Source of the DNA: Corallococcus macrosporus DSM 14697 | GTDB lineage: Bacteria; Myxococcota; Myxococcia; Myxococcales; Myxococcaceae | Length of the DNA stretch: 64,000 nt | Assembly (NCBI RefSeq): GCF_002305895.1 | Contig: NZ_CP022203.1 | Coordinates: 2,706,501-2,770,500, forward strand | Direction of reading: 5' to 3' | In this document: positions 2,366-23,489 of the stretch, in pieces | Numbering within the stretch: the first letter of the stretch is position 1 | Layout of the letters: every line of letters starts with the position of its first letter | Translations under genes and position numbers: made by a program | The notes under the pieces: generated by a model | What the model was told of the DNA's origin: nothing | Databases searched by the model: none | Seen by the model: the letters and a program-made list of their open reading frames with translations, nothing else

Positions 2366-3418
2366 ATGCGCAGCCGTACTCGCCGCGTGGTGGCCGTGAG
2401 CCTGGCTTCGCTGCTCGCCGCGGGGCTCGCGGAGCTCGCCCACCTGCCTGCCGGAGCGCTGCTGGGCTCGATGCTGGTGTCCATTGCCGCTTCGCTGACG
2501 CTGTCCGTGCATGCCCCGCTCCCGCGCGGGGGGCTGCTGGTGGCGCAGTCGGTGCTGGGCGGCGCGCTGTGTTCGTCCTTCACGCCGGAGGCCTGGAGCG
2601 CGCTCGCGGACAACTGGGCCGTGTCGCTGGCCGCGGTGGTGGGGGTGGTGGCCGTGGCGCAGGGCGTGGCGCTGGTGTGCGCGAGGCTGGGGCACCTGGA
2701 CCCGCGCACCGCCACCCTGGGGCTGATGCCAGGCGGCGCGTCCGCCATGGTGGCGCTGAGCGACGAGCTGGGCGCGGACGCTCGGCTGGTGACGCTCTTC
2801 CAGTATGTGCGCCTGTGCATCGTGATTCTCGTGGCCGTGGCGGTGGGACGTTGGGCGGGGGACACGCCGGAGGTGGCCGTGGCTCGCGCGGCGGACCTGC
2901 CTGGCTCGCCGTCGCCGCTGTGGGCGTGGCTGACGACGGCGGCGGTGTCCGCCGTGGGCGGTGTCCTGGGGCACTACCTGAAGCTGCCGGCCGGGGCCTT
3001 CCTGGGGCCCGTGTTGCTGGGCATCCCGCTCACGGCCATGGGCCTGCCCGTGGGGGCGTGGCCTCCGGGTGTCCTCGCGCTGGGGTTGTGGGCGCTGGGC
3101 GTGCGCGTGGGCAGCCAGTTCGATGCGTCGGCGGCGCGGGAGCTGAAGCGGGTCGCCCACGTCGCGCTCGCGGCGTCGGTGGCGATGGTGTTGGGGTGCC
3201 TGCTGCTGGCCTGGGGCTGGTCCGCCGCCGCGGGCGTGGACCTCATCACCACCTACTTCGCGACCTCGCCCGGTGGCGCCGACTCCGTCCTGGCCATCGC
3301 GTTGGGCACGCGTGCCACCCTGTCCGTCGTCCTGGCGGTCCAGGTGGGGCGGGTGTTGTTGATCTTCCTGGTCGCGCCGACGCTCCTTCGCAGGCTGTCG
3401 CCGTCCCGGGACGCTTGA
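2366..3418 (+). CDS. AbrB-family membrane protein (putative transporter)
   Basis: About 350 residues, almost entirely hydrophobic, with two homologous halves of transmembrane helices. Repeated motifs LPAGALLGSML and LPAGAFLGPVLLG plus LMPGGASAMVAL and TSPGGADSVLA mark the AbrB/PF05145 family, named after an ammonia-monooxygenase-linked gene and not related to the DNA-binding AbrB. Probably an inner-membrane transporter or regulator of unknown substrate. Start chosen at 2366 (MRSRTRR) because the positively charged N terminus then leads straight into the first membrane helix; an in-frame ATG at 2324 would add 14 residues. Confidence 0.8.
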   Translation: MRSRTRRVVAVSLASLLAAGLAELAHLPAGALLGSMLVSIAASLTLSVHAPLPRGGLLVAQSVLGGALCSSFTPEAWSALADNWAVSLAAVVGVVAVAQGVALVCARLGHLDPRTATLGLMPGGASAMVALSDELGADARLVTLFQYVRLCIVILVAVAVGRWAGDTPEVAVARAADLPGSPSPLWAWLTTAAVSAVGGVLGHYLKLPAGAFLGPVLLGIPLTAMGLPVGAWPPGVLALGLWALGVRVGSQFDASAARELKRVAHVALAASVAMVLGCLLLAWGWSAAAGVDLITTYFATSPGGADSVLAIALGTRATLSVVLAVQVGRVLLIFLVAPTLLRRLSPSRDA

Positions 3419-9561: not shown

Positions 9562-9607
9562 GCATGGCGCTCGCCGCCTGCGCCCCGGCCGCGGCGCGCC
9601 GGCTCAG
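9558..9607. terminator. Hairpin spanning convergent stop codons
   Basis: CTGAGC at 9558-9563 pairs with GCTCAG at 9602-9607, with an inner GGCG/CGCC. The stem includes both the stop of the methyltransferase and the stop of cysI. A possible shared terminator; no T tract. Confidence 0.35.
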
Positions 9608-11292
9608 GAGGGCCGAGGCTGGGGGGACGCGCCGGGGACGTGGCCAGCGCGCACCACGAAGTCGCCGAAGCCCTCGCCGGGCTGGCGCTCGCGGGCGTAG
9701 CCCTCGAACAGCGGCTCCAGCGCGGCGAGGATGGCGTCCTCGTCGATGTTCTCCCGGTACAGGCGGTTGAGGCGCTGGCCTCGCGCATCGCCGCCCAGGT
9801 GCAGGTTGTAGCGGCCCGGCGCCTTGCCCACGAGCCCCACCTCCGCCAGGTAGGGACGCGCGCAGCCGTTGGGGCACCCGGTGATGCGCAGCAACAGGTT
9901 GGCGTCCTGGAGTCCATGCGCCCGCAGCCGGTCCTCCAGCCGCCCGACGAAGGAGGGCAGGTAGCGCTCCGCCTCCGCCATGGCGAGCCCGCACGTCGGC
10001 AGCGCCACGCAGGCCAGCGCGTTGCGGCGCACGGGGCTGGCGCCGCGGAAGCTGTCCAGGGCGTGCGCCGTCACCAGCGCGTCGATGGCTCCGCGGGCCT
10101 GGGGCGTCACGCCCGCGATGACGAGGTTCTGGTTCGCCGTGAGGCGGAAGTCCCCGGTGTGGATGCGGGCAATCTCCCGCAAGCCCGTCAGGTGCGTGGC
10201 GCCGGGCCGGTCCGCCACGCGCCCGCTGTCCAGGTGCAGCGTCAGGTGCCAGCGGCCGTCATGGCCCTCCGTCCACCCGAAGCGGTCCCCGTTGTGCTCG
10301 AAGGCGAAGGGGCGCGCGGGCTGGAGCGCGAAGCCGAGCCGCTTCTCCAGCTCCGCGGTGAACCAGGGCACGCCGCGCTCCTCCAGGACGTACTTCAGCC
10401 GCGCGTGCTTGCGGTTGGCGCGGTCCCCGAAGTCGCGGTGAAGCTTCACCACCGCTTCCGCGACGGCGAGCGTCTGCTCCGGCGGGATGAAGCCGACGAC
10501 GTCCGCCAGCCGGGGGTAGGTGGCCGCGTCGCCGTGCGTGGCGCCCATGCCGCCGCCCGCCGAGACGTTGAAGCCCACCAGCGCGCCGTCCTCGATGATG
10601 GCGATGAAGCCCAGGTCCTGCGCGAAGACGTCCACGTCGTTGAGGGGCGGCACCGCCACGGCGACCTTGAACTTCCGGGGCAGGTAGGTGGGGCCGTAGA
10701 TGGGCTCCTCCTCACCGCCGGCCACCTTCTCCTTGCCCAGCCAGATTTCGTGGTAGGCGCGCGTCCTGGGCAGCAGGTGCTCGGAGATGCGCGCCGCCCA
10801 CTGGTACACCGTCTCGTGGACGCGCGAGTCCACGGGGTTGGGGTTGCACAGCACGTTGCGGTTGACGTCACCGCAGGCGGCCAGCGTGTCCATCATCGCG
10901 TCGTTGATGCGGGCGATGGTGGACCGGAGGTCATCCTTGATGATGCCGTGGAGCTGGAACGCCTGCCGCGTGGTGATGCGCAGCGTGTGGTTGGCGTGCT
11001 CGCGTGCAAGCGCGTCCATGGCCAGCCACTGCGCGGGCGTGCAGACGCCACCGGGCAGGCGGGTGCGGAGCATGAAGCTGTAGTCGGGCTCCAGCTTCTG
11101 CTGGCGCCGCTCCTCGCGCAGGTCCCGGTCGTCCTGCTGGTAGCTGCCGTGGAACTTTATGAGGCTGGTGTCCGGCGTGGCGAGCGCCCCCGTCACCGGG
11201 TCCTCCAGGCTCTCCTCCAGGCTGCCTCGGAGCAGGCGGCTCTGCGTCTTGATGTGCTCCACTTCGGAGAGCGGCTTGGGCTGGTGGCTCAT
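9604..11292 (-). CDS. cysI: Sulfite reductase hemoprotein (CysI)
   Basis: 562 residues, close to the E. coli enzyme (570). It reduces sulfite to sulfide with six electrons at a coupled siroheme and [4Fe-4S] centre. Cluster ligands are visible: Cys428 and Cys434 (ACVALPTC), Cys473 and Cys477 (TGCPNGC). Sulfite-binding Arg/Lys-rich segments around TRQAFQLHG are also present. Start at ATG 11292 ([11 protein letters not shown]), matching the family N terminus; the frame continues upstream only into cysJ sequence read out of frame. Last gene of the sulfur operon, 25 bases after cysJ. Confidence 0.96.
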
Positions 11293-11317
11293 GTCGTTGC
11301 TCGCAATCTCAAATGGG

Positions 11318-13147
11318 TCAGTAGACGTCGCGCAGGTAGCGCCGCTGCTCGCGCAGGGCTTCGAGCCAGGCGTGCGCGTCCTCGCGGCGCTTGCCGCCGT
11401 GCGTGGAGACGATGTCCACCAGGGCTTCGTGGACGTCCGGGGCCATGCGCTGGGCGTCGCCGCAGACGTAGAGGTGGGCCCCGCCTTCGAGCCACGCGTA
11501 GACGTCACGTCCCGCCTCGCGCAGCCGGTGCTGCACGTAGACCTTCTGCGCACGGTCCCGAGAGAAGGCGAGCGACAGCCGGTGCAGCGTCTGCTGCTTC
11601 AGCGCCTCCTGCCACTCCGTCTGGTAGAGGAACTGGGTGCGGAAGTGTTGCTCGCCGAAGAAGAGCCAGTTGCGGCCCTTCGCCCCCGTCTCCGCGCGCT
11701 CCTGGACGAAGGCCCGGAAGGGCGCCACGCCGGTGCCAGGGCCAATCATCAGCACGTCCCTGTCCCCGTCCTCCGGCAACCGGAAGCGCTCGTTCGGCTC
11801 GACGAAGACGCGGACCGGGTCGGTGCCCGCCGTGCGCGTGGCCAGGTGGTGGGACGCCGCGCCGAAGTGCCGCAGGTCGAAGGCCGTGTAGTCCACCACC
11901 GCCACCGTGAGGTGGGCCTCCTCCCCCACGCGCTTGGGGCTGGAGGCAATCGAATACAGCCGGGGCGTCAGCTTGCGCAGCGTCTTCACCAGCTCGGTGG
12001 CGTCCCACGTGGCCTTGTGCGCGCGGAGCACGTCGATGACCTGGTGGCCCGCCAGCAGCGCGCGGAAGGCGTCGGCGCGGCCCGGTTCGAGCACCTCTCG
12101 CAGCGCCGCGCTGCCCGACAACGCGGCGTGCCGCTCCAGGAAGGGGCGGTTGAGCTTCGTGATTTCCAGCGCGTCACCCAGCCAGCGGGCCAGCGGCAGC
12201 GTGCGGCCATCGCGGGTGATGGGCGCGTCGCCGTCGAGCCGCAGCTCGGACAGGAACAGCGCCACCAGCTCCGGGGGATTGTGAGGCCACACCCCCAGCG
12301 CGTCGCCCGGGGCGTACTCCAGCCCGGAGCCCGCGAGCGACAGCTCCACGTGCCGCACGTCCTTGAGCGCTCCGCGCGCGGTGATGCGCTGGTTGAGCAG
12401 CACCTCCGCGGTGTACGGCGCCTCCTTGCTGAACGCCGATGCCTTCGCGGCGGGCTCCCGCATGGGCACGACGGTGGCCGCCACGGGGGCTTGAGGCGCC
12501 AGGGCCTCGCGCGCCAGGGTGAAGGCCTGGTCCAGCCAGCCCTTGGCCACGGGTTCGAAGTCCACGTCGCAGTCGGCCCGCTCCAGCAGCCGGCTGGCGC
12601 CCAGCTCCGCGAGGCGGACGTCGAGCGCCCGGCCCACCTCACAGAAGCGCGGGTAGCTGGAGTCGCCCAGCCCGAGGACGGCGTAGCGCAGCCCCTCCAC
12701 GCGGGGGGCGCGCTTGCCCAGGATGAACTCGCAGAAGCCTCGCGAGTCATCCGGCGGGTCGCCGTCCCCCTGGGTGCTGATGACGATGCAGAGCAGCTTC
12801 TCCTTGGCCAGCTCCCGCACGGGATAGTCGCTGGCCCGGAACAGCCGCGCGGTGAGCCCGGCGGACGCCACCTGGTGCTTGAGCCGCTCCGCCAGCAGGC
12901 GGCTGTTCCCCGTCTGCGTCCCGTAGATGATGGTGAAGGGCGCGGCGGGCGCGGCCACGGGCACGGGCGTCACGGGGACGGCGGAGGCCTGCGGCGCGCG
13001 GGCGGCCAGCCCCGCCGTGTAGCCGCTCAGCCAGTGCAGGGCGGACGTGTCCAGTCCCCCGACGAGCTTCAGCAGCAGGGCGCCCTGGTCCTCCCCCAGC
13101 AGCGCGTTGATGAACGGGGGAGTGGCGGTGACAGGGGATGCGCTCAT
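11318..13147 (-). CDS. cysJ: Sulfite reductase flavoprotein (CysJ)
   Basis: 609 residues. Domains in order: a short N-terminal segment, flavodoxin-like FMN domain starting at [15 protein letters not shown] (about residue 70) with GDGDPPDD and GLGDSSY, then the FAD domain ([16 protein letters not shown]) and the NADPH domain ([34 protein letters not shown], ending in the terminal Tyr of the family). It carries electrons from NADPH through FAD and FMN to CysI. Its start overlaps the cysN stop (ATGA, 13144-13147), implying translational coupling. Confidence 0.96.
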
Positions 13148-14853
13148 CGTGCGGCCTCGCGAAGGGAGACGACTCGGGCGAGCTGGGCCTCCAGGTCCTC
13201 GCTGGCGTCCAGCTCCAGCCACGCGGCGCCAGCATCCCGGGCCTCCGCGCGCAAGGCCCGGCGAGTCTGGGGCGTGTCGGTGTGGACCAGCGCCACCAGG
13301 CCCGCGGCGGCGAGCGCGAGCGCCACCTCCATGTCGCCGTGGGTGGTGGAGACGTGCCAGCCCAGGTCGAACAGCCGGCGCTCCAACTGGAAGGCGCGGG
13401 TGCTGGCGTCCGCGCTGGCGGGCAGCAGGACGATGGCGCCGGGCTGTCCCAGCTTCGCGCGCCGCTCGGGCTGCGTGACGAGCGAGGCGTCCACCTTGCC
13501 CGGCGCCGAATCCTCCGCGGGGCCCAGGACCATGCCCGCGCCCACGGTGTCATGGGTGAGCGCGTCAATGACGATGAACGCGCCCGTGCGGCGGTTGTCG
13601 CGGTACGGGTCCGTCAGCAGGGGGCGCCGGCAGACCAGGCGCACCCGGCCGATGTCATTGAGCGACAGCGACTCCGCGGGCTGTTCGGACAGGTCCGCCA
13701 GCTCCTTGCGCCACAGCACCCGTTCGATGTGGGCGGGCGCGGTGCGCGTGGCCTGCTTCACCAGGTAGCGGCGGGCGCAGTCCAGCGGCTGCTCACCGAA
13801 CCACACGAGCATCGCGTCGAGCTGATGGAGCGCCAGCGGCGGCTGGTCCACGTGGGCCAGCACGTCGCCCCGGCTGGCGTCCACCTCGTCCGCCAGCCGG
13901 AGCGTCACGGAAGCAGGGGACGCGGCCACCTCCAGCGGCCCGTCGAACGTGTCGATGCCCGCCACGCGCGTGCGGCGCCCGGAGGGGTGGACCTGGATTT
14001 CATCCCCCACGCGGAGGGTGCCGGAGGCAATCTGTCCCGCCAGCCCCCGGTAGTCCTGGTGGGGCCGCAGCACGTACTGGACGGGGAAGCGGAAGGGCGC
14101 GTCGTCCTGCCGGCGCTGGTGGGGCAGGGACTCCAACCACGCGAGCAGCGTGCCGCCCTCGTGCCAGGGCGTGCGGGCGCTGGGCCGGGTGATGTTGTCT
14201 CCGCGGCTGGCGCTGACGGGGAAGAGCCGCACGCCCTCGAAGCCGAGCGCGCGGGCGAAGTCCACCAGCTCGGCGCCGATGCGCTCGAACGCGTCCCGGT
14301 CGAAGCCCGTGAGGTCCATCTTGTTCACCGCCACGGCCAGGTAGGGGATGCCCAGCAGCGAGGCGATGTACGCGTGACGGCGCGTCTGCGGCAGCACGCC
14401 CAGGCGCGCGTCCACCAGGATGACCGCCGCGTCCGCCGTGGAGGCGCCGGTGGCCATGTTGCGCGTGTACTGGATGTGACCCGGCGTGTCCGCGACGATG
14501 ACCTTGCGCCGCGCCGTGCTCAGGTAGCGGTAGGCGACGTCGATGGTGATGCCCTGCTCGCGCTCGGCGCGCAGGCCGTCCGTGAAGAGGGAGAAGTCCA
14601 GCGCCTCCTCGTCCGCGCCGGCCGCGGCCTTCAGGCCCTGGGCCAGCGCCTCCGGGGACGCGGAGACGGCGGCGGCCCGCTTCGCGCTGGCCTTGCGCAC
14701 CGCTTGAATCTGGTCCTCGAAGAGGCCGTCGCACTCGTAGAGGAGCCTGCCGATGAGGGTGGACTTGCCGTCGTCCACGGAGCCGACCACGACGAGCCGG
14801 AGCAGCTCGCGGGCGGAGTGCTGGTCGAGCAGTTGCTGCAGTCCGGTGTCCAT
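13144..14853 (-). CDS. cysN: Sulfate adenylyltransferase GTPase subunit with degenerate APS-kinase domain
   Basis: 569 residues. The first 460 are CysN: P-loop GSVDDGKST (24-32), ADTPGH, NKMD, then EF-Tu-like barrel domains. GTP hydrolysis by this subunit drives APS formation by CysD. From about residue 469 a further 100 residues align in outline with APS kinase (CysC): GAIVLLP, LFDLGWHVSTTHGD, GLVALVHTDTP. However, where CysC has the P-loop GSGKST this protein has SADAST, and the GDNVR motif is GDMEV, so the kinase appears dead. That fits the APS-reductase type of CysH in the same operon, which makes PAPS unnecessary. Shares one base with the cysD stop (TGATG). Confidence 0.93.
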   Translation of the reverse strand: MDTGLQQLLDQHSARELLRLVVVGSVDDGKSTLIGRLLYECDGLFEDQIQAVRKASAKRAAAVSASPEALAQGLKAAAGADEEALDFSLFTDGLRAEREQGITIDVAYRYLSTARRKVIVADTPGHIQYTRNMATGASTADAAVILVDARLGVLPQTRRHAYIASLLGIPYLAVAVNKMDLTGFDRDAFERIGAELVDFARALGFEGVRLFPVSASRGDNITRPSARTPWHEGGTLLAWLESLPHQRRQDDAPFRFPVQYVLRPHQDYRGLAGQIASGTLRVGDEIQVHPSGRRTRVAGIDTFDGPLEVAASPASVTLRLADEVDASRGDVLAHVDQPPLALHQLDAMLVWFGEQPLDCARRYLVKQATRTAPAHIERVLWRKELADLSEQPAESLSLNDIGRVRLVCRRPLLTDPYRDNRRTGAFIVIDALTHDTVGAGMVLGPAEDSAPGKVDASLVTQPERRAKLGQPGAIVLLPASADASTRAFQLERRLFDLGWHVSTTHGDMEVALALAAAGLVALVHTDTPQTRRALRAEARDAGAAWLELDASEDLEAQLARVVSLREAAR

Positions 14854-15770
14854 CAGAAGTAGCCCTCGCGCTTCTTGAGCTCCATGGAGCCCTCTTCGTC
14901 GTGGTCGATGAGCCGGCCCTGCCGTTCGGACTGGCGGGCGCTCACCATCTCGTGGATGACGGTCTCCACCGTGGTGGCGGAGGATTCGATGGCGCCGCTG
15001 AGCGGGTAGCAGCCCAGCGTGCGGAAGCGCACGCGCCGGAGCACGGGCTTCTCCCCGGGGCGCAGCCGCATGCGCTCGTCGTCCACCATGAGCAGCGTGC
15101 CGCCCCGGTCAATCACCGGGCGCTCGGCCGCGAAGTAGAGCGGCACCACGGGGATGCGCTCGCGCAGCACGTAGTGCCACACGTCCAGCTCCGTCCAGTT
15201 GGACAGCGGGAAGACGCGCATGCTCTCGCCCGCGTCGACGCGGCCGTTGAAGAGGTTCCACAGCTCGGGGCGCTGCCGGCGCGGATCCCACTGGCCGTGC
15301 CTGTCCCGGAAGGAGAACACCCGCTCCTTGGCGCGGGACTTCTCCTCGTCACGCCGCGCGCCGCCGAACGCCGCGTCGAAGCCATGCTTCGCCAGCGCCT
15401 CCAACAGCGACTGCGTCTTCATCGCGTGGGTGTACTTCTGGCTGCCGTGGTCGAAGGGGTTGATGCCCTCGGCCAGCGCGCGCTGGTTCTGGTGGACGAT
15501 GAGGCGCAGCCCGTGGCGGGCCACGAAGGCGTCCCGGAACGCGTACATGTCCCGGAACTTCCAGGTGGTGTCCACGTGGAGCAGCGGGAAGGGGAGCGGC
15601 GCGGGATGGAACGCCTTGCGCGCCAGGTGCAGCAGGACCTGCGAGTCCTTGCCGATGCTGTAGAGCATCACCGGGTTGGCGAACTCGGCCACCGTCTCGC
15701 GGAGGATGTGGATGCTCTCCGCCTCCAGCTCCGACAGGTGCGACGCGCGCGCGAACGAGTGCTCACTCAT
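14853..15770 (-). CDS. cysD: Sulfate adenylyltransferase small subunit (CysD)
   Basis: 305 residues, the same size as E. coli CysD (302). It joins sulfate and ATP to give APS and pyrophosphate. The PP-loop ATP pyrophosphatase motif is seen at [18 protein letters not shown] (near residue 40), followed by [16 protein letters not shown] and the [19 protein letters not shown] segment, all family hallmarks. Start overlaps the end of cobA by eight bases (15763-15770). Works as a heterodimer with CysN. Confidence 0.96.
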
Positions 15771-16563
15771 GACCGCCCTCCGCCACGCGCGCTGGCGCGT
15801 GTCCGTGTTCCGGGGTGCCCTGCGCCACCAGCGACGGCAGGCGCGAGCGCAGGGAGACGACTTCGCCCACGATGAGCAGCGACGGTGAGCCCAGCCCGTC
15901 GCGCGCCACCGCCTGGGCGATGCGGCCCAGCGGGGCCTCCACCACCCGTTGATGTTCCCAGGTGCCCGCCTCCACCACCGCGGCCGGGGTGGACGCGGCG
16001 CGCCCCGCGCCCATCAGCGCGCGCGCCGTCTCCTCCAGCCGGCTCCCCGCCATGTAGAGGACCAGCGTCTGGGCCTTCGCGAGGAAGTCCCAGTCCGGCG
16101 CGCTGCCGCCGCGGTAGGCGGTGGCGAAGGTCACCGCGCCGGACACGCCCCGGTGCGTGACGGGGATGGCCGCCGCGGCGGGCACGGCCGTCCCGGCGGT
16201 GAGGCCGGGCACGACTTCATAGGGGATGCCCGCCTCTTCCAGCGCGAGCGCCTCCTCGCCGCCGCGGCCGAAGACGAAGGCGTCCCCGCCCTTGAGCCGC
16301 ACCACGCGGCGCCCCAGCAGCGCCTGGGCGATGAGGAGGACGTGAATCTCCTCCTGGCTCACCGAGTCGCCGCCCCCCTCCTTGCCCACGTAGATGAGCC
16401 GCGCGTGGGGGCGCGCATGCTCCAGCACGCCGGGGTGGACCAGCCGGTCATGAACGACGGTGTCCGCCTCGCGGAGCACGCGCGCGGCGCGCAAGGTCAA
16501 CAGCTCCGGGTCGCCCGGGCCCGCGCCGACCAGGAACACGCGGCCTCTCGTCTGCTCTCTCAT
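15763..16563 (-). CDS. cobA: Uroporphyrinogen-III C-methyltransferase
   Basis: 266 residues of the tetrapyrrole methylase fold. It starts with [18 protein letters not shown], the SAM-binding signature of the family, followed by [18 protein letters not shown] and [20 protein letters not shown]. It methylates uroporphyrinogen III twice to give precorrin-2, the first step toward siroheme for CysI. Together with the next gene upstream it supplies the functions that E. coli combines in CysG. Four-base ATGA overlap with the upstream gene. Confidence 0.95.
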
Positions 16564-17225
16564 GGTGTCTCTCCAGGAACCTTCAAGGCCCGCAGGTCCG
16601 CGCGCAGCCGTGCCCAGGCCGCCTTGCGCTCGCCCTGCTCCAGCAGCACGCCGATGTCGCCCACCGCCACCTGCTTCAGGAGTTGCTGGCGCTCGGTGCC
16701 CCGGGGCAGGTGCTCGCGCAGCCAGCCGCTGAGCCGGGCCCGCCAGACGTGGTGGCGCGTCACCTGGGCGGTGAGCGTCTTGCGCAGGTGGCTCGCCAGG
16801 GCGGGCGCCTGACCCGCGCTGGACACCGCGACGGTGATGGGGCCCCGCCTGCCGATGGAGGGCAGGGTGAAGTCACACAGCTCGGGCTCGTCCGCGGTGT
16901 TGACCCACACGCCCAGGGCGCGGGCCTCCGCCGCCACCTGCCGGCTCACGGCCGCGTCATCGGTGGCCGCGAGCACCAGGTGCTGGCCGCGCGCGTCGCC
17001 GGCCTCGTAGGGGCGGGGCAGCCACTCCAGGTGCCCGCCCTCGGCGAGCGTCCGGAGGGTGTCGGTGGCGCGTGGCGCGATGACGCGCAGCCTCGCGCCG
17101 GCGTCGAGCACCGCCAGCGCGCGGCCCTCCGCGATGGCGCCGCCGCCCACCAGCAGGACGGAGCGCCCTTCCAGTCGAAGGCACACGGGATAGTCCATGG
17201 GATGTGAAGGCATGGCGGCGCTCAT
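16560..17225 (-). CDS. Precorrin-2 dehydrogenase / sirohydrochlorin ferrochelatase
   Basis: 221 residues similar to the N-terminal part of CysG and to Met8. An NAD-binding motif VLLVGGGAIAEGRA sits near residue 25, followed by NTADEPELCDFTLPS and RGPITVAVSSAGQAPALASHLR, which carry the family's active-site region. It oxidises precorrin-2 to sirohydrochlorin and can insert iron to give siroheme. Start chosen at ATG 17225 because it overlaps the cysH stop as ATGA; an upstream in-frame start at 17273 would run deep into cysH. Confidence 0.92.
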   Translation of the reverse strand: MSAAMPSHPMDYPVCLRLEGRSVLLVGGGAIAEGRALAVLDAGARLRVIAPRATDTLRTLAEGGHLEWLPRPYEAGDARGQHLVLAATDDAAVSRQVAAEARALGVWVNTADEPELCDFTLPSIGRRGPITVAVSSAGQAPALASHLRKTLTAQVTRHHVWRARLSGWLREHLPRGTERQQLLKQVAVGDIGVLLEQGERKAAWARLRADLRALKVPGETP

Positions 17226-17944
17226 CGGACCGGGTGGAGGCCGCACTCGCGGTTCTCCGCGGACTCCCACCACCAGCGGCCCGCGCGTTCGTCCTCGTAG
17301 GGCTTCACCGCGCGCGTGCAGGGCGCGCAGCCGATGGACGGGTACCCGCGGTCATGGAGCGCGTTGTAGGGCACGCCGTTCGCCCGGACGTAGGCCCAGA
17401 TGTCCTTGCTGCTCCACGTGGCCAGCGGGTTGAGCTTGAGCAGCCCGTGCGCGCCGTCCACCTCCACCGTCGCCACGTCGGTGCGGGTGACGGACTGCTC
17501 GCGGCGCAGTCCCGTCACCCACGCCTCGCGGCCGGCCAGCGCGCGTGCCAGCGGCTCCACCTTGCGGATGGCGCAGCACTCCTTGCGCGCCTCCAGGCTC
17601 TGGCGGAAGGAGAAGTAGCCCTTCGTGGACTCCAGCGCCTCCACGCGCTCGCGCTCCGGGAAGTACGTCTCCACGGTGACGCCGTAGCGCTTGCGCACCA
17701 CGTCCATGAGCTCGTACGTCTCTGGTGGCAGGCGGCCGGTGTCGAGCGTGAAGAGGCGCAGGCTGGGCGCGTGCTGGCGCGCCAGGTCGATGAGGACCAG
17801 GTCCTCCACGCCGAAGCTGGAGGCAATGGCGGCGCGCGCGCCGAAGCGGCGTTCGGCCCAGGTGAGGATGTCCTGGGCGGGGGCGGACTTCACCTCGGCG
17901 GCTTCGGCCAGCAGGGTGGATACGTGGGGCAGCGGGGGCGGCAT
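17222..17944 (-). CDS. cysH: APS reductase (iron-sulfur CysH)
   Basis: 240 residues. A PP-loop-like N-terminal half (SSFGVEDLVLIDLA, LFTLDTGRLPPETY) and two Cys pairs, Cys123-Cys124 (ECCAIRK) and Cys206/Cys209 (GCAPC), which in this family bind a [4Fe-4S] cluster and mark use of APS rather than PAPS. The C-terminal ECGLH carries the catalytic Cys. It reduces APS to sulfite. First structural gene of the operon; GGAG lies a few bases before its ATG, immediately after the T tract of an intrinsic terminator (17957-17993), so expression depends on read-through. Confidence 0.95.
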   Translation of the reverse strand: MPPPLPHVSTLLAEAAEVKSAPAQDILTWAERRFGARAAIASSFGVEDLVLIDLARQHAPSLRLFTLDTGRLPPETYELMDVVRKRYGVTVETYFPERERVEALESTKGYFSFRQSLEARKECCAIRKVEPLARALAGREAWVTGLRREQSVTRTDVATVEVDGAHGLLKLNPLATWSSKDIWAYVRANGVPYNALHDRGYPSIGCAPCTRAVKPYEDERAGRWWWESAENRECGLHPVR

Positions 17945-17956
17945 GGGGACTCCGGC

Positions 17957-17993
17957 AAAAAAGAAACGGCCCGCCTCTTTCGAGGGCGGGCCG
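17957..17993 (-). terminator. Intrinsic terminator (attenuator 2) ahead of cysH
   Basis: On the minus strand, a perfect 9-bp stem CGGCCCGCC/GGCGGGCCG with a short extension and GAAA-type loop is followed by TTTCTTTTTT. It lies between the stop of the 50-aa Cys-rich frame (18023) and the cysH start (17944). Its 5' arm contains CCCGCCCTC (minus strand, bases 17990-17982), the exact complement of GAGGGCGGG in the Cys-rich frame (18055-18047). Pairing of these two would prevent the terminator from forming. This is the expected geometry of a transcription attenuator. Confidence 0.9.
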
Positions 17994-18022
17994 CACGAGC
18001 AAGAAGGTTCGAGAAGGACGCG

Positions 18023-18175
18023 CTACTCGCCTCTCGATGCTCGGCACCCGCCCTCCGGCGGACACGCGGGACACGCACAGCACGGACAGCCGTTGGCACC
18101 CGCGGCACAGGCGGCGGCACACCCGGCGGCGAGCACGGGAGCGCGGAGGGCATGGGTGTCAAAGGCGAAGGACAT
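18023..18175 (-). CDS. Cysteine-rich leader peptide 2 (50 aa)
   Basis: Fifty codons, ATG at 18175 to TAG at 18023. Cys at positions 19, 23, 30, 32, 33, 35, 38 and 44, with the cluster CPCCACPAC at 30-38. Six of the eight Cys codons are TGT although the genome strongly prefers C in third position. Codons 41-43 (GAG GGC GGG) form the segment complementary to the downstream terminator; it can also fold back on CCGCC in codons 39-40. I infer a regulatory leader peptide: ribosomes stalling at Cys codons when Cys-tRNA is short would free the anti-terminator and let cysH be transcribed. A small metal-binding protein is the alternative. No clear Shine-Dalgarno precedes it. Confidence 0.8.
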   Translation of the reverse strand: MSFAFDTHALRAPVLAAGCAAACAAGANGCPCCACPACPPEGGCRASRGE

Positions 18176-18202
18176 GGGCACGCGGTGCGGGGCTGGGAGC
18201 GG

Positions 18203-18243
18203 GAACGAAAACGGCCCGGTTCCTGGGTCAGGAGACCGGGCCG
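18203..18243 (-). terminator. Intrinsic terminator (attenuator 1)
   Basis: Minus strand: CGGCCCGGT, one bulged base, TCCTG, a 3-base loop, CAGGA, ACCGGGCCG, then TTTTCGTT. The stem is 14 bp with one bulge. It separates the 30-aa and 50-aa Cys-rich frames. The loop and 3' arm (minus strand ACCCAGGAACCGG, bases 18228-18216) are complementary, except for a small internal loop, to CCGGACCTGGGT at codons 26-29 of the upstream leader frame (18307-18296). Confidence 0.85.
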
Positions 18244-18289
18244 GGAGGAGCGCGGGGCGGAAGGCTTGGAGAGGCTTCCGGTGTGCGCG

Positions 18290-18382
18290 TCAACAACCCA
18301 GGTCCGGCTGACGACAGCAGGCACACGACGGACAGCAGCGGCTGAAGCACGGCGCGGCGGTCGGTGTGAGTGGGTGCGTCAT
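18290..18382 (-). CDS. Cysteine-rich leader peptide 1 (30 aa)
   Basis: Thirty codons, ATG at 18382 to TGA at 18290. Cys at 12, 16, 17, 20, 22, 23 and 30; the core reads CFSRCCPSCACC. Four of seven Cys codons are TGT. Codons 26-29 contain the segment able to pair with the following terminator. It resembles the second leader in having CC and CxC clusters, so the two may be duplicates. The best upstream promoter match predicts a transcript beginning about five bases before the ATG, and no Shine-Dalgarno is present, suggesting leaderless translation. Inferred role: sensing of Cys-tRNA charging for the sulfate-assimilation operon. Confidence 0.82.
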   Translation of the reverse strand: MTHPLTPTAAPCFSRCCPSCACCRQPDLGC

Positions 18383-18393
18383 CGAGGAGCCCA

Positions 18394-18423
18394 ACGCTAA
18401 CGCCTGCCGCGGGCGGGCGTCAA
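18394..18423 (-). promoter_or_regulatory. Candidate promoter of the sulfur operon
   Basis: Minus strand TTGACG (18423-18418), an 18-base spacer, then TAGCGT (18399-18394). The -35 matches five of six consensus positions, the -10 three of six. Predicted start near 18387, just before the ATG of leader peptide 1. No other good match lies between here and cysH. Confidence 0.5.
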
Positions 18424-18610
18424 CCGGCCCTCACGGAAGAGGCGCGGACAAGGGCTCGTTCCAGAGGGGGCGGTCGCTCGTCCGCCTGGTCTCAAGGCGT
18501 GTGGGCCGACCTTGGAAGGGGGCGGGGAGCCGGGCCCTCGTTGCCCCTGAGGTGATGGGCACCACCTTTGCGGCAAGCCGGATTCACCCGTCACCCATTG
18601 GAGGCCATTG

Positions 18611-19048
18611 ATGGCGAGCACCAACAAGGACGTCGAGACGCTCAACTCCTTCCTGCGCGGCGAAATCTCCGCCGTGGAGACCTATCGTCAGGCGATCGGG
18701 CACGTGTCGGACGGACTGGCCCGTGACGCGCTGGAGTACTGCCAGCACGACCACGAGCACCGGGTCGAGGAGCTCCGCGACCTCATCCAGAAGATGGGCG
18801 GTGAGCCCGCCAAGGGCTCCGGCATGTGGGGCACCTTCGCCAAGCTGGTGCAAGGCGGCGCGGACGTCCTGGGCGAGAAGGCCGCCATCCAGGCGCTGGA
18901 GGAGGGCGAGGACCATGGCCTGGCCGACTACCAGCGGGACGCGGACCAGGTGCATGGCGAGGCCCGCCGCTTCGTGCGGATGGAGCTGCTCCCCGCCCAG
19001 AAGCGGACGCATGAGCGGCTCAGCCGCCTCAAGCGCACCCTGCACTGA
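18611..19048 (+). CDS. Ferritin-like DUF2383/PA2169-type protein
   Basis: 145 residues, all helical, predicted four-helix bundle. Typical features: LNSFLRGEISAVETYRQAI near the N terminus and DHEHRVEELRDLI, with Glu/His positions that could bind metal; the family belongs to the ferritin-like superfamily, is often stress-associated and has no firm function. Start at ATG 18611 rather than the TTG three bases earlier, with GGAGG at 18600-18604 in good position. Single gene followed by a strong terminator. Confidence 0.85.
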   Translation: MASTNKDVETLNSFLRGEISAVETYRQAIGHVSDGLARDALEYCQHDHEHRVEELRDLIQKMGGEPAKGSGMWGTFAKLVQGGADVLGEKAAIQALEEGEDHGLADYQRDADQVHGEARRFVRMELLPAQKRTHERLSRLKRTLH

Positions 19049-21242: not shown

Positions 21243-21605
21243 CTAGAAGTAGCAGACGGAGTCGAGACCGCAGTAGCCCTGAACATCACCACACTGGCAG
21301 TGGTAGTCCTCCGCACAGAACATCGCGTGGCAGAAGGGGCCGCCCGGGCCGCCGGTGCCACCACCCGTGCGATAGGTGTACTCGCACACGTTGTTCGTGC
21401 AGGTGGCCGTCTGCGCGCTGGGACACGCGTCCGCGCACTGCCAGTCCTCGTCACAGAAGGACTGGAAGCAGATGGCCATTGATGCGCTCTCAGTGCTCTC
21501 GCAAAGCAACTCGGGCCCGGAGTCGATGGGGTCGGCGGCCGCGACGGTCGCGAACGTCAGCAGCAGGGCGGCACTCCAGGCGAGGGGACGGCGGGTGACG
21601 GACAT
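21243..21605 (-). CDS. Small exported cysteine-rich protein
   Basis: 120 residues. A clear Sec signal peptide (MSVTRRPLAWSAALLL..., cut likely after about residue 24 in VAAADP) is followed by a domain with about 14 Cys, including FCDEDWQC, CADACPS, CTNNVCEY, FCAEDYHCQCG. The pattern suggests a disulfide-rich knot. There is a glycine linker TGGGTGGPGG. No homologue recognised. Probably periplasmic, surface or secreted. Start at ATG 21605; the longer upstream frame lacks coding character. Confidence 0.75.
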   Translation of the reverse strand: MSVTRRPLAWSAALLLTFATVAAADPIDSGPELLCESTESASMAICFQSFCDEDWQCADACPSAQTATCTNNVCEYTYRTGGGTGGPGGPFCHAMFCAEDYHCQCGDVQGYCGLDSVCYF

Positions 21606-21929
21606 GATGGCTCCTGACGCCGACAACCCGGGCGGTCGTGCACGGGAATGTCGGGCTGTCAAAGAATACCAGGGGGCGTCAGGGATGAACGGTCGTCTGC
21701 TTTGGCCCGGGTTTTCAATGGCAGACATTTGCCCGGGCTCAGGATTCGTGACGCGCGAAGATTCCGTCCCGGCTGCCGGGTTTGCCGCATTGCTTCCTGG
21801 CGGTGCGGGTGGAACACGTAATCGTGAGTCGTGTTTCACCCGCGCAGGCAGGGCAAAAAGCGTGGCTGCAGGTGAAATCGCGCGATGACCTGACGGTCCA
21901 AGTGGCGTGTCCGGTAGGCTACGGCTCCG
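21606..21929. other. Divergent intergenic region
   Basis: 324 bases between the exported Cys-rich gene (-) and the acyltransferase-like gene (+), with lower GC than the surroundings, as expected for a promoter region. It contains two GCCCGGG blocks about 26 bases apart. I see no convincing gene; the small plus-strand frame that reaches into the next gene has poor codon bias and no ribosome binding site. Confidence 0.45.
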
Positions 21930-23489
21930 ATGTCGTGGGTCATCCCCCCGTTGACCGCTCGGAGGCGTTCCTTGGACGGTTCCGGTCCCCTCCCACTGCC
22001 GCTTGAGACCCAGGACGTTGGCGTCAGCGGACGCGTGCATTCGGCGCTGACACACCAGTTCCCGCACCTGCATCCGGTGGCGCGTCAGGCCATCAGCGGG
22101 CTCGTGCGTTGCTGTGATGGATGGCGGCGGTTGTTCCCCGCGCGGCGGCCGACGCACGTGGTGCCCGCGCTGACGACGTGGGAGCAGTTCCTTTCCACGG
22201 AGCCCCGCTCGCGCCGCGCCATGGTGACGGTGCAGCCGCTGGGCGTGGACCTGGAAGGGGGCTTCTGGGCGGCGGTGCTCCTGGCGAACGTGGCGCGCTG
22301 GTACCGCGGCAGCCTGGGCGTGCGCCGGCAGAACCAGCCCCTGGACGTCTGGGTGGCGCGGTTGGGCCGCGAAGGCACCGACGCGCGCCAGCGCGCCCCG
22401 GACCCGGAGGTCCTCACCGCCGCCGTCACGTGTGAGGACGGCGGGTTCCAGGTGGTGCGCCTGTCGCTGGAGGACGCGGCGCTGACGCCCGGCGCGGTGG
22501 CGGCGCTGCTGGCGCGCGCGCCGGTGCGCTCGCTGGCGGAGTCACGCCGGGAGGGCGTGTTCCCCCAGGTGGTGGTGGACCGCGCCGCACGAGGCGCCAG
22601 CGCGTGGGCGTCCCATCTGCTGACGTCGAGCGCCTGGCTGGGGGCGCGCGTGGACGCGGCGACGGGCGCGCTGGAGCTGAGCATCGACCACCTGGTGATG
22701 GATGGCACGGCGATGGCCGAGCTGTCGCTGGCCGCCTCGGTGGGGCTGCCTCGGCGGGCGGACCCCGCGGAGCTGGGCGACTGGCTCACGGGGCCGGACG
22801 AGCCGTCGCCGGTGCTGCGGGTGGAGTTGCCGGAGGGGCTCGACTTCCGCAACCTCACCTGCGCGATGCTCCAGGCGGTGCGGCGAGCCGGCGAGGGCGT
22901 GTTCCCCGTCGACAACCCCACGCTGCTGGTGCCGGTGCTGCCTTCGTCGCCGCACACCGTGGCGCGCAAGTGGCGGCGCATCGGCATCGCGGTGATTCCC
23001 TCGCGGACACGCCTGGGCCCGATGACGCCCACGCACGTCGCGCACCTGCTGGAGCAGACACGGCGGGGCGGAGGCGTGCTGGAGGACATCTTCGCCACGC
23101 TGTACGCACCGGCGCTGCCGTGGTGGATGCCGTCGCTCACCACGCACGGCTTCGCCTTCACCCCGTTGCTGCGGCAGGTGCCCGCGGCCCTGGGAGGTAA
23201 TGCCCTGCTGTCCAAAATCACCCTGGAGGTCGACGATGATGACGCGCTGGCGCGGCATCCCGCGCTCTTCTTCAACACGATGCGGCCGCTGTGCGCCGTG
23301 GGGGGCGGTGTGGCCCTCTGCGTGACGGAGGTCCTCCACGCGACGCCGTCGGGCGCGCGCAAGCGCTTCTTCGCGGCCCTGGCGGGCAGTGGCGCCCTGG
23401 GCACACGCGCGCGGCTGCTGGCCTTCCGGGACGTGCTCGTCGCGGAGGCCCTCCGCAGGTCCCGGCCGGCACGTCCGATGCTTCCTTGA
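21930..23489 (+). CDS. Acyltransferase-like protein with HxxxDG motif
   Basis: 519 residues. His254 and Asp258 in DHLVMDGTAMAEL match the HxxxDG active-site motif of the CoA-dependent acyltransferase superfamily (chloramphenicol acetyltransferase, NRPS condensation domains, PapA, wax ester synthases). Size and two-lobed layout fit that fold, but I cannot identify the DFGWG-like second motif with certainty, so this is a remote assignment. No signal peptide. Start ATG 21930; a later TTG at 21972 is possible. The next gene begins 33 bases downstream on the same strand, suggesting an operon with a ferritin-like hydrolase. Confidence 0.55.
   Translation: MSWVIPPLTARRRSLDGSGPLPLPLETQDVGVSGRVHSALTHQFPHLHPVARQAISGLVRCCDGWRRLFPARRPTHVVPALTTWEQFLSTEPRSRRAMVTVQPLGVDLEGGFWAAVLLANVARWYRGSLGVRRQNQPLDVWVARLGREGTDARQRAPDPEVLTAAVTCEDGGFQVVRLSLEDAALTPGAVAALLARAPVRSLAESRREGVFPQVVVDRAARGASAWASHLLTSSAWLGARVDAATGALELSIDHLVMDGTAMAELSLAASVGLPRRADPAELGDWLTGPDEPSPVLRVELPEGLDFRNLTCAMLQAVRRAGEGVFPVDNPTLLVPVLPSSPHTVARKWRRIGIAVIPSRTRLGPMTPTHVAHLLEQTRRGGGVLEDIFATLYAPALPWWMPSLTTHGFAFTPLLRQVPAALGGNALLSKITLEVDDDDALARHPALFFNTMRPLCAVGGGVALCVTEVLHATPSGARKRFFAALAGSGALGTRARLLAFRDVLVAEALRRSRPARPMLP

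Follow-up and report, generated by a model that had tools for sequence, protein, structure and literature searches.

What do two short cysteine-rich reading frames, each followed by a terminator-like hairpin, do in front of a sulfate-assimilation operon in Corallococcus macrosporus DSM 14697? The initial annotation of the 64,000-nucleotide stretch analysed here (hereafter the window) had answered that they are two cysteine attenuators in series. Conservation among relatives, the content of the operon, and the alternative folds of the leader RNA all support that answer, and it is very probable that two serial, ribosome-mediated transcription attenuators that sense charged tRNA-Cys gate the cysHG-cobA-DNJI operon.

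The operon and its leader region

The leader region lies between cysH, on the minus strand, and a divergent gene encoding a DUF2383 protein (18608-19048, plus strand), a position that marks it as the leader and promoter of an operon on the minus strand. Seven genes make up this operon in the order cysH-cysG-cobA-cysD-cysN-cysJ-cysI, all on the minus strand. The first, cysH (17222-17944; PF01507, NF002537, and TIGR02055), encodes a phosphoadenylyl-sulfate/adenylyl-sulfate reductase and is followed by genes for an N-terminal-type CysG siroheme synthase (precorrin-2 dehydrogenase; 16560-17273; TIGR01470), a CobA or C-terminal-type CysG uroporphyrinogen-III C-methyltransferase (15763-16563; TIGR01469), and the small (cysD, 14853-15770; TIGR02039) and large (cysN, 13144-14853; TIGR02034) subunits of sulfate adenylyltransferase. 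The last two genes encode the sulfite reductase flavoprotein (cysJ, open frame 11318-13222; TIGR01931, matching from residue 43) and hemoprotein (cysI, open frame 9604-11553, with its true start probably near 11298; TIGR02041 and NF010029). These family matches bear out the sulfate-assimilation operon that had been placed downstream of the leaders and confirm its predicted role in assimilatory sulfate reduction and siroheme synthesis, the product being sulfide for cysteine.

Read along the minus strand, the region presents a promoter-like element, leader ORF 1, a first terminator-like hairpin (T1), leader ORF 2, a second terminator (T2), and then the cysH operon. The promoter-like element (18395-18423) consists of a -35 box, TTGACG (18423-18418), a 17-nt spacer, and a -10 box, TTAGCG (18400-18395). 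Leader ORF 1 (18290-18382) encodes a peptide of 30 residues, MTHPLTPTAAPCFSRCCPSCACCRQPDLGC, with seven Cys (four TGT and three TGC codons), and leader ORF 2 (18023-18175) encodes one of 50 residues, MSFAFDTHALRAPVLAAGCAAACAAGANGCPCCACPACPPEGGCRASRGE, with eight Cys (six TGT and two TGC codons). The promoter-like element, the 30-residue frame with seven Cys, the 50-residue frame with eight Cys, and the two hairpins with their T tracts are thus all present where the initial annotation had described them, the T run of the first hairpin being short.

The promoter pattern TTGACG-17-NTASCN is found at the same site in almost every species of the genus. In species with a readable -10 box, the distance from that box to the start of leader 1 is usually 8-12 nt (12 nt to the ATG in the window); leader 1 is therefore probably leaderless or nearly so. 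A consensus scan for promoters and terminators called neither the promoter nor T1 or T2, owing to its narrow rules for hexamers and loops; these three elements are backed instead by their conservation in relatives. Leader 2 has no Shine-Dalgarno sequence in the window or in the relatives compared. Its start comes after a pyrimidine-rich stretch in all of these sequences.

Cysteine codons of the leaders

When all start/stop combinations of 20-60 amino acids are counted, with each start counted separately, the two strands of the window hold 658 plus 574 short frames. Only eight of these contain at least seven Cys, and five of the eight are accounted for by the two leaders. The choice of codon is also unusual. 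Among the tandem species, TGT makes up 135 of 185 Cys codons in leader 1 and 130 of 211 in leader 2, as compared to 10 of 137 in cysH (i.e., 62-73% UGU in the leaders versus 7% in cysH). The excess corresponds to p values of about 1e-35 for leader 1 and 1e-26 for leader 2, values that overstate independence because the rows are related sequences. Rare UGU codons would be expected to raise the sensitivity of the ribosome to a shortage of Cys-tRNA, by analogy with leu leaders, where rare Leu codons are a comparable use of locally rare codons.

Comparison of the leaders of relatives indicates that the Cys codons of the cluster are kept while adjacent codons vary; the length of the leader and its N-terminal sequence vary freely, and the positions of the cluster Cys drift. 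In the aligned leaders of the attenuator 2 type, the wobble position of a CGA Arg codon is conserved, which points to selection acting on the RNA. A search against family models returned no protein family match for the leader frames.

A few frames are peculiar in their Cys content. Leader 2 of Archangium sp. SZUA-606 carries 12 Cys in a row (L024:1692-1822, minus strand), encoded mostly by TGC repeats, and this suggests growth of the sensor by repeat slippage. At another locus, L016, a promoter of this type is followed, about 180 nt upstream of cysH, by a frame resembling a leader (MLLLSPTTAAVSHRCGDRGSSPLRSEA); it contains one Cys and is possibly a leader stripped of its cysteines. Elsewhere in the window itself, an ORF at 21243-22157 (minus strand) has a Cys-rich C-terminal part (CHAMFCAEDYHCQCGDVQGYCGLDSVCYF) and possibly encodes a secreted Cys-rich protein.

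Conservation and origin of the tandem

Of 100 relatives, 62 yielded a cysH gene, and 50 upstream regions of this gene were read. Both Cys leaders, T1, and T2 occur in the same order and with similar spacing in all 27 genomes of the genus, a set that includes Pyxidicoccus fallax, and the same tandem is present in three genomes of two further genera, including Archangium sp. SZUA-606 (L024, the same as L082; QKJM01000206.1). Frames homologous to leader 1 and leader 2 are therefore carried by 30 of the 50 upstream regions, always before cysH. Conservation among relatives had been named in the initial annotation as a check on its claim, and both frames, the hairpins, and the promoter proved to be kept genus-wide and in two more genera.

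Other relatives carry less. Single leaders of the attenuator 2 type were identified at L017 and L018, from the same family, and at L045 and L047, from another family. At L013, L014, L016, L216, L217, L221, and L222, which represent several related genera, cysH has no Cys-rich leader, and some of these loci retain a terminator-like hairpin. It should be noted that a conserved inverted repeat, CGCCATATTGGCG, stands directly before the TTGACGG promoter box at L017, L018, L216, L217, and L221 (and partly at L013). The genera that have this repeat upstream of cysH have one Cys leader or none, and the repeat is possibly a candidate site for a transcription factor that takes over control.

Mapping of the tandem on a cysH tree required two changes as compared to a mean of 9.0 for shuffled labels, a result that is compatible with either a single origin followed by loss or two gains. 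R1, a covariance model derived from attenuator 2, scores 127.9 bits at T2/attenuator 2 of the window and matches both copies of L024 (105.9 and 89.1 bits); its match to attenuator 1 of the window is weak (16.5 bits, E 0.012). Further, the single leader of L017 and L018 shares the N-terminal look MT..STxTA with leader 1 of the tandem and ends like leader 2 (AGAELSRSK). This combination of a leader-1-like N-terminus with a leader-2-like end would fit an origin of the tandem by duplication of one ancestral unit.

Predicted terminators and alternative folds

A predicted intrinsic terminator is present between each leader ORF and what follows it, that of the first unit with a weak T run. T1 (18207-18242, minus strand; GGCCCGGT...ACCGGGCC, GTTTTC) has a stem at 18242-18213, followed by GTTTTCG as a short T run. 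Four of its nine stem pairs show compensatory changes among relatives, and its T run is poor in several of them, degenerating to TGTTCC or TCTCTC. T2 (17957-17992, minus strand; GGCCCGCCCTC-GAAA-GAGGCGGGCC) has a stem at 17992-17968 and a strong T tract, GTTTCTTTTTT, that extends to 17957; it is conserved in the alignment of relatives.

Antiterminator hairpins, like the UGU bias, the probable near-leaderless start of leader 1, the single-copy relatives, and the cysK and cysI-cysH loci with the same element, go beyond what the initial annotation had described. Support for an alternative fold differs between the units: it is clear for attenuator 2 and weaker for attenuator 1. The predicted antiterminator 2 (17984-18053, minus strand) is one long hairpin that runs from the last codons of leader 2, stop included, through the 5' arm of T2, such that the stop lies near the loop and the 3' arm of the hairpin is the 5' arm of T2. 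In the window, its predicted stability is -40.9 kcal/mol (z -2.65 versus dinucleotide shuffles), and every element of the attenuator 2 type is more stable than its shuffle mean (mean z -3.2, range -1.5 to -5.0). In a structure-fitted alignment, 84% of cells pair, versus 32-58% when the alignment is slid, and 12 cells are doubly changed in a compensatory manner versus 5.5 +/- 2.0 in shuffles, the alignment itself having been fitted to the hairpin. This covariation lends modest support to the fold, since the pairs at its base also serve in the terminator and are thereby kept from changing. In distant relatives the fold is kept with other sequence (GUGGCGG/CCGCCAC at L045 and L047). The predicted antiterminator 1 (18235-18308, minus strand) follows the same plan, pairing the end of leader 1, stop codon included, with the 5' arm of T1 (CCUGGG... 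with a GCCCGG arm). It is weaker than antiterminator 2, with a mean z of -1.5 over 26 relatives, and among the relatives folded it is absent from two genomes (L036 and L037).

The position of the ribosome was modeled with a footprint that reaches 12 nt downstream from where the A-site codon begins. With the A site in the Cys cluster, the terminator arm pairs with the leader at a mean probability of about 0.7-0.9, and with the A site at the stop codon this probability is 0.00. Shuffled GC-rich leaders also pair with the arm (0.60 versus 0.76 for real leaders), and pairing probability was dropped as unspecific support for the switch in favor of hairpin stability. Counted on the sequence, the last Cys codon of the leader 2 cluster lies about 12 nt before the base of the hairpin in most species. 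A ribosome stalled at that codon would thus stand against the hairpin and leave it closed, and one that had advanced to the stop codon, which lies in or near the apical loop, would open antiterminator 2. Equilibrium folds of the full leaders favor the terminators in most species, and the switch must therefore be kinetic.

The same RNA element at other sulfur loci

Model R1, run against 195 genomes of the phylum, recovered the element at sulfur loci other than cysH operons of the kind described above. Matches of 63-73 bits precede an extra copy of cysK in seven large-genome species of the genus (L204-L210; e.g., positions 869-1009 of L204, plus strand), and each of these extra copies has a poly-Cys leader, such as MSLPLPTTGAQCCCCCRVACACCCLAGPEHWESA, along with the same antiterminator/terminator RNA. 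A match of 46 bits precedes a cysI-cysH operon in a different family (L211, about 2483-2618, minus strand), where the leader is MRTVSATSFDHTAACCCCACCCCRPAGRAPGDFA and the attenuator is a single Cys attenuator. The recurrence of a poly-Cys leader together with the same predicted fold at separate sulfur loci is the strongest circumstantial evidence that cysteine is the signal. No Cys leader was found at the closest cysK of the C. macrosporus genome itself, nor at the ordinary cysK of the other relatives examined.

Weaker matches were of a different nature. Two in the C. macrosporus genome (20.7 and 19.5 bits) were, on inspection, not Cys attenuators before sulfur genes, and a third scored 15.9 bits. 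Those matches under about 45 bits that were read, L212-L215 and L218-L220 among them, proved to be ordinary terminators that follow unrelated genes. Matches of a model R2 on the opposite strand (E 0.1-0.35) result from the nearly palindromic hairpin and were excluded, and a DNA pattern for the antiterminator/terminator core, applied to the whole collection, returned mostly unrelated GC-rich sequence among the matches listed.

Proposed mechanism and alternatives

Each unit is proposed to consist of a short leader frame with a cluster of Cys codons, mostly the locally rare UGU, whose last ~10 codons, including the stop, would form the 5' half of an antiterminator; the 3' half would be the 5' arm of the terminator that follows. 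At low Cys-tRNA, a ribosome would stall on the cluster just upstream and leave the antiterminator closed, such that no terminator forms and RNA polymerase continues. With ample Cys-tRNA, the ribosome would reach the stop and open the hairpin, and the freed arm would form the terminator and end transcription. In two such units in series, the fractions of read-through would multiply, with a lower leak and a steeper response as the expected result.

The weakest link in this proposal is a separate function of the first unit. Only the second attenuator may switch, with leader 1 and T1 persisting as a decaying or constitutive partial terminator from the duplication, a history that would fit the short and degenerating T run of T1, the weakness of antiterminator 1, and the sufficiency of single attenuator 2-type elements in other genera. 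However, leader 1 is retained with its Cys cluster and UGU bias in 30 genomes, compensatory changes uphold the T1 stem, and the leader 1 frame shows no sign of decay; a locus with one working attenuator is accordingly regarded as unlikely, though with a real chance of being correct. It is less probable still that the position of the ribosome on the leader sets the translation of cysH, as in translational attenuation of the mycobacterial poly-Cys style. That mechanism is known for poly-Cys leaders, according to the papers that cite the work (Canestrari et al., 2020, cited in PMC13236596 and PMC9094748), and leader 1 seems nearly leaderless too, but a GC-rich hairpin with a T run follows each leader at a conserved position, the Shine-Dalgarno sequence of cysH (GGAG, 17953-17950, minus strand) lies outside T2, and the end of leader 1 is more than 340 nt from cysH.

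The frames could also encode functional small Cys-rich peptides, metal- or redox-active, whose place before cysH would reflect joint expression with it. Their composition and a CxxC-like spacing would suit such a role, which is nevertheless judged very improbable given that length and N-terminus vary freely, that the Cys positions drift, up to the 12-Cys run in L024, that conservation toward the C-terminus falls on the codons pairing with the terminator arm, and that no protein family is matched. A last alternative is that the frames arose by chance in GC-rich DNA and happen to precede ordinary terminators. Long open frames abound in this DNA, and a GC-rich leader will pair with any GC-rich arm. 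Yet conservation in all 27 congeneric genomes excludes chance, and this explanation is left with almost no probability given that 30 genomes in total retain the frames, that frames this rich in Cys are rare in the window, and that the leaders favor UGU. The two serial attenuators are thus preferred. A more extended reading, held with moderate confidence, is that of a duplicated attenuator: two serial gates for the same tRNA, the first with a leaderless leader, that belong to a myxobacterial RNA family which has also reached cysK and a further sulfite-reductase operon, and that form a natural same-signal cascade multiplying attenuation.

Comparison with known attenuators

In the open-access literature searched, no account of a cysteine attenuator from myxobacteria turned up. 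If the proposal is correct, this would, as far as that literature goes, be the first such attenuator with intrinsic terminators described in myxobacteria, and it would place two ribosome-mediated attenuators for one signal in series. It would also make a question of design testable, namely whether duplication of an attenuator lowers leak and sharpens the response, with single-copy relatives and genera without a leader serving as natural controls.

The proposed units share with attenuators of the trp, leu, his, and ilv type a leader in which the regulated amino acid is abundant, an antiterminator and a terminator that exclude each other, and a biosynthetic operon downstream; the locally rare codons for the regulated residue in leu-type attenuators are a further likeness. 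They differ in that the amino acid is cysteine, in that two complete units stand in series, in that the antiterminator is predicted to be one long hairpin that holds the leader stop, and in that the first leader is probably leaderless or nearly so. In Firmicutes, Cys-specific T-box leaders take the charging of tRNA-Cys as input and give transcription termination as output. Input and output would be the same here, whereas sensing would need translation. Between 17200 and 18700 of the window, no T-box or other Rfam family came near its gathering score.

Poly-Cys leaders have been predicted in actinobacteria, where no terminators were found (Seliverstov et al., 2005; PMC1262725), and leaderless poly-Cys sORFs of mycobacteria are reported, in papers that cite the original study, as translational attenuators (Canestrari et al., 2020, cited in PMC13236596 and PMC9094748). 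The mycobacterial sORFs share with the myxobacterial leaders a run of Cys codons in a short leader before sulfur genes. Their leaderless start may have a counterpart in leader 1, given its usual distance of 8-12 nt from the predicted -10 box in relatives; leader 2 is internal. In the myxobacterial region, in contrast, a hairpin with a T run, a predicted intrinsic terminator, follows each leader, and the leaders are arranged in tandem. The resemblance of the probably near-leaderless, Cys-rich leader 1 to the mycobacterial leaders suggests that comparable solutions evolved repeatedly. For tandem attenuation, the comparison is the mgtCBR operon of Salmonella, which has been called a singular example and whose two attenuators respond to different signals, ATP for mgtM and proline for mgtP (PMC3641672). 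There, as in C. macrosporus, a single leader mRNA contains a pair of short leader ORFs, and an attenuation-like structure goes with each. At the cysH locus, in contrast, leaders 1 and 2 abound in one and the same amino acid, and the two units look like duplicates of one another.
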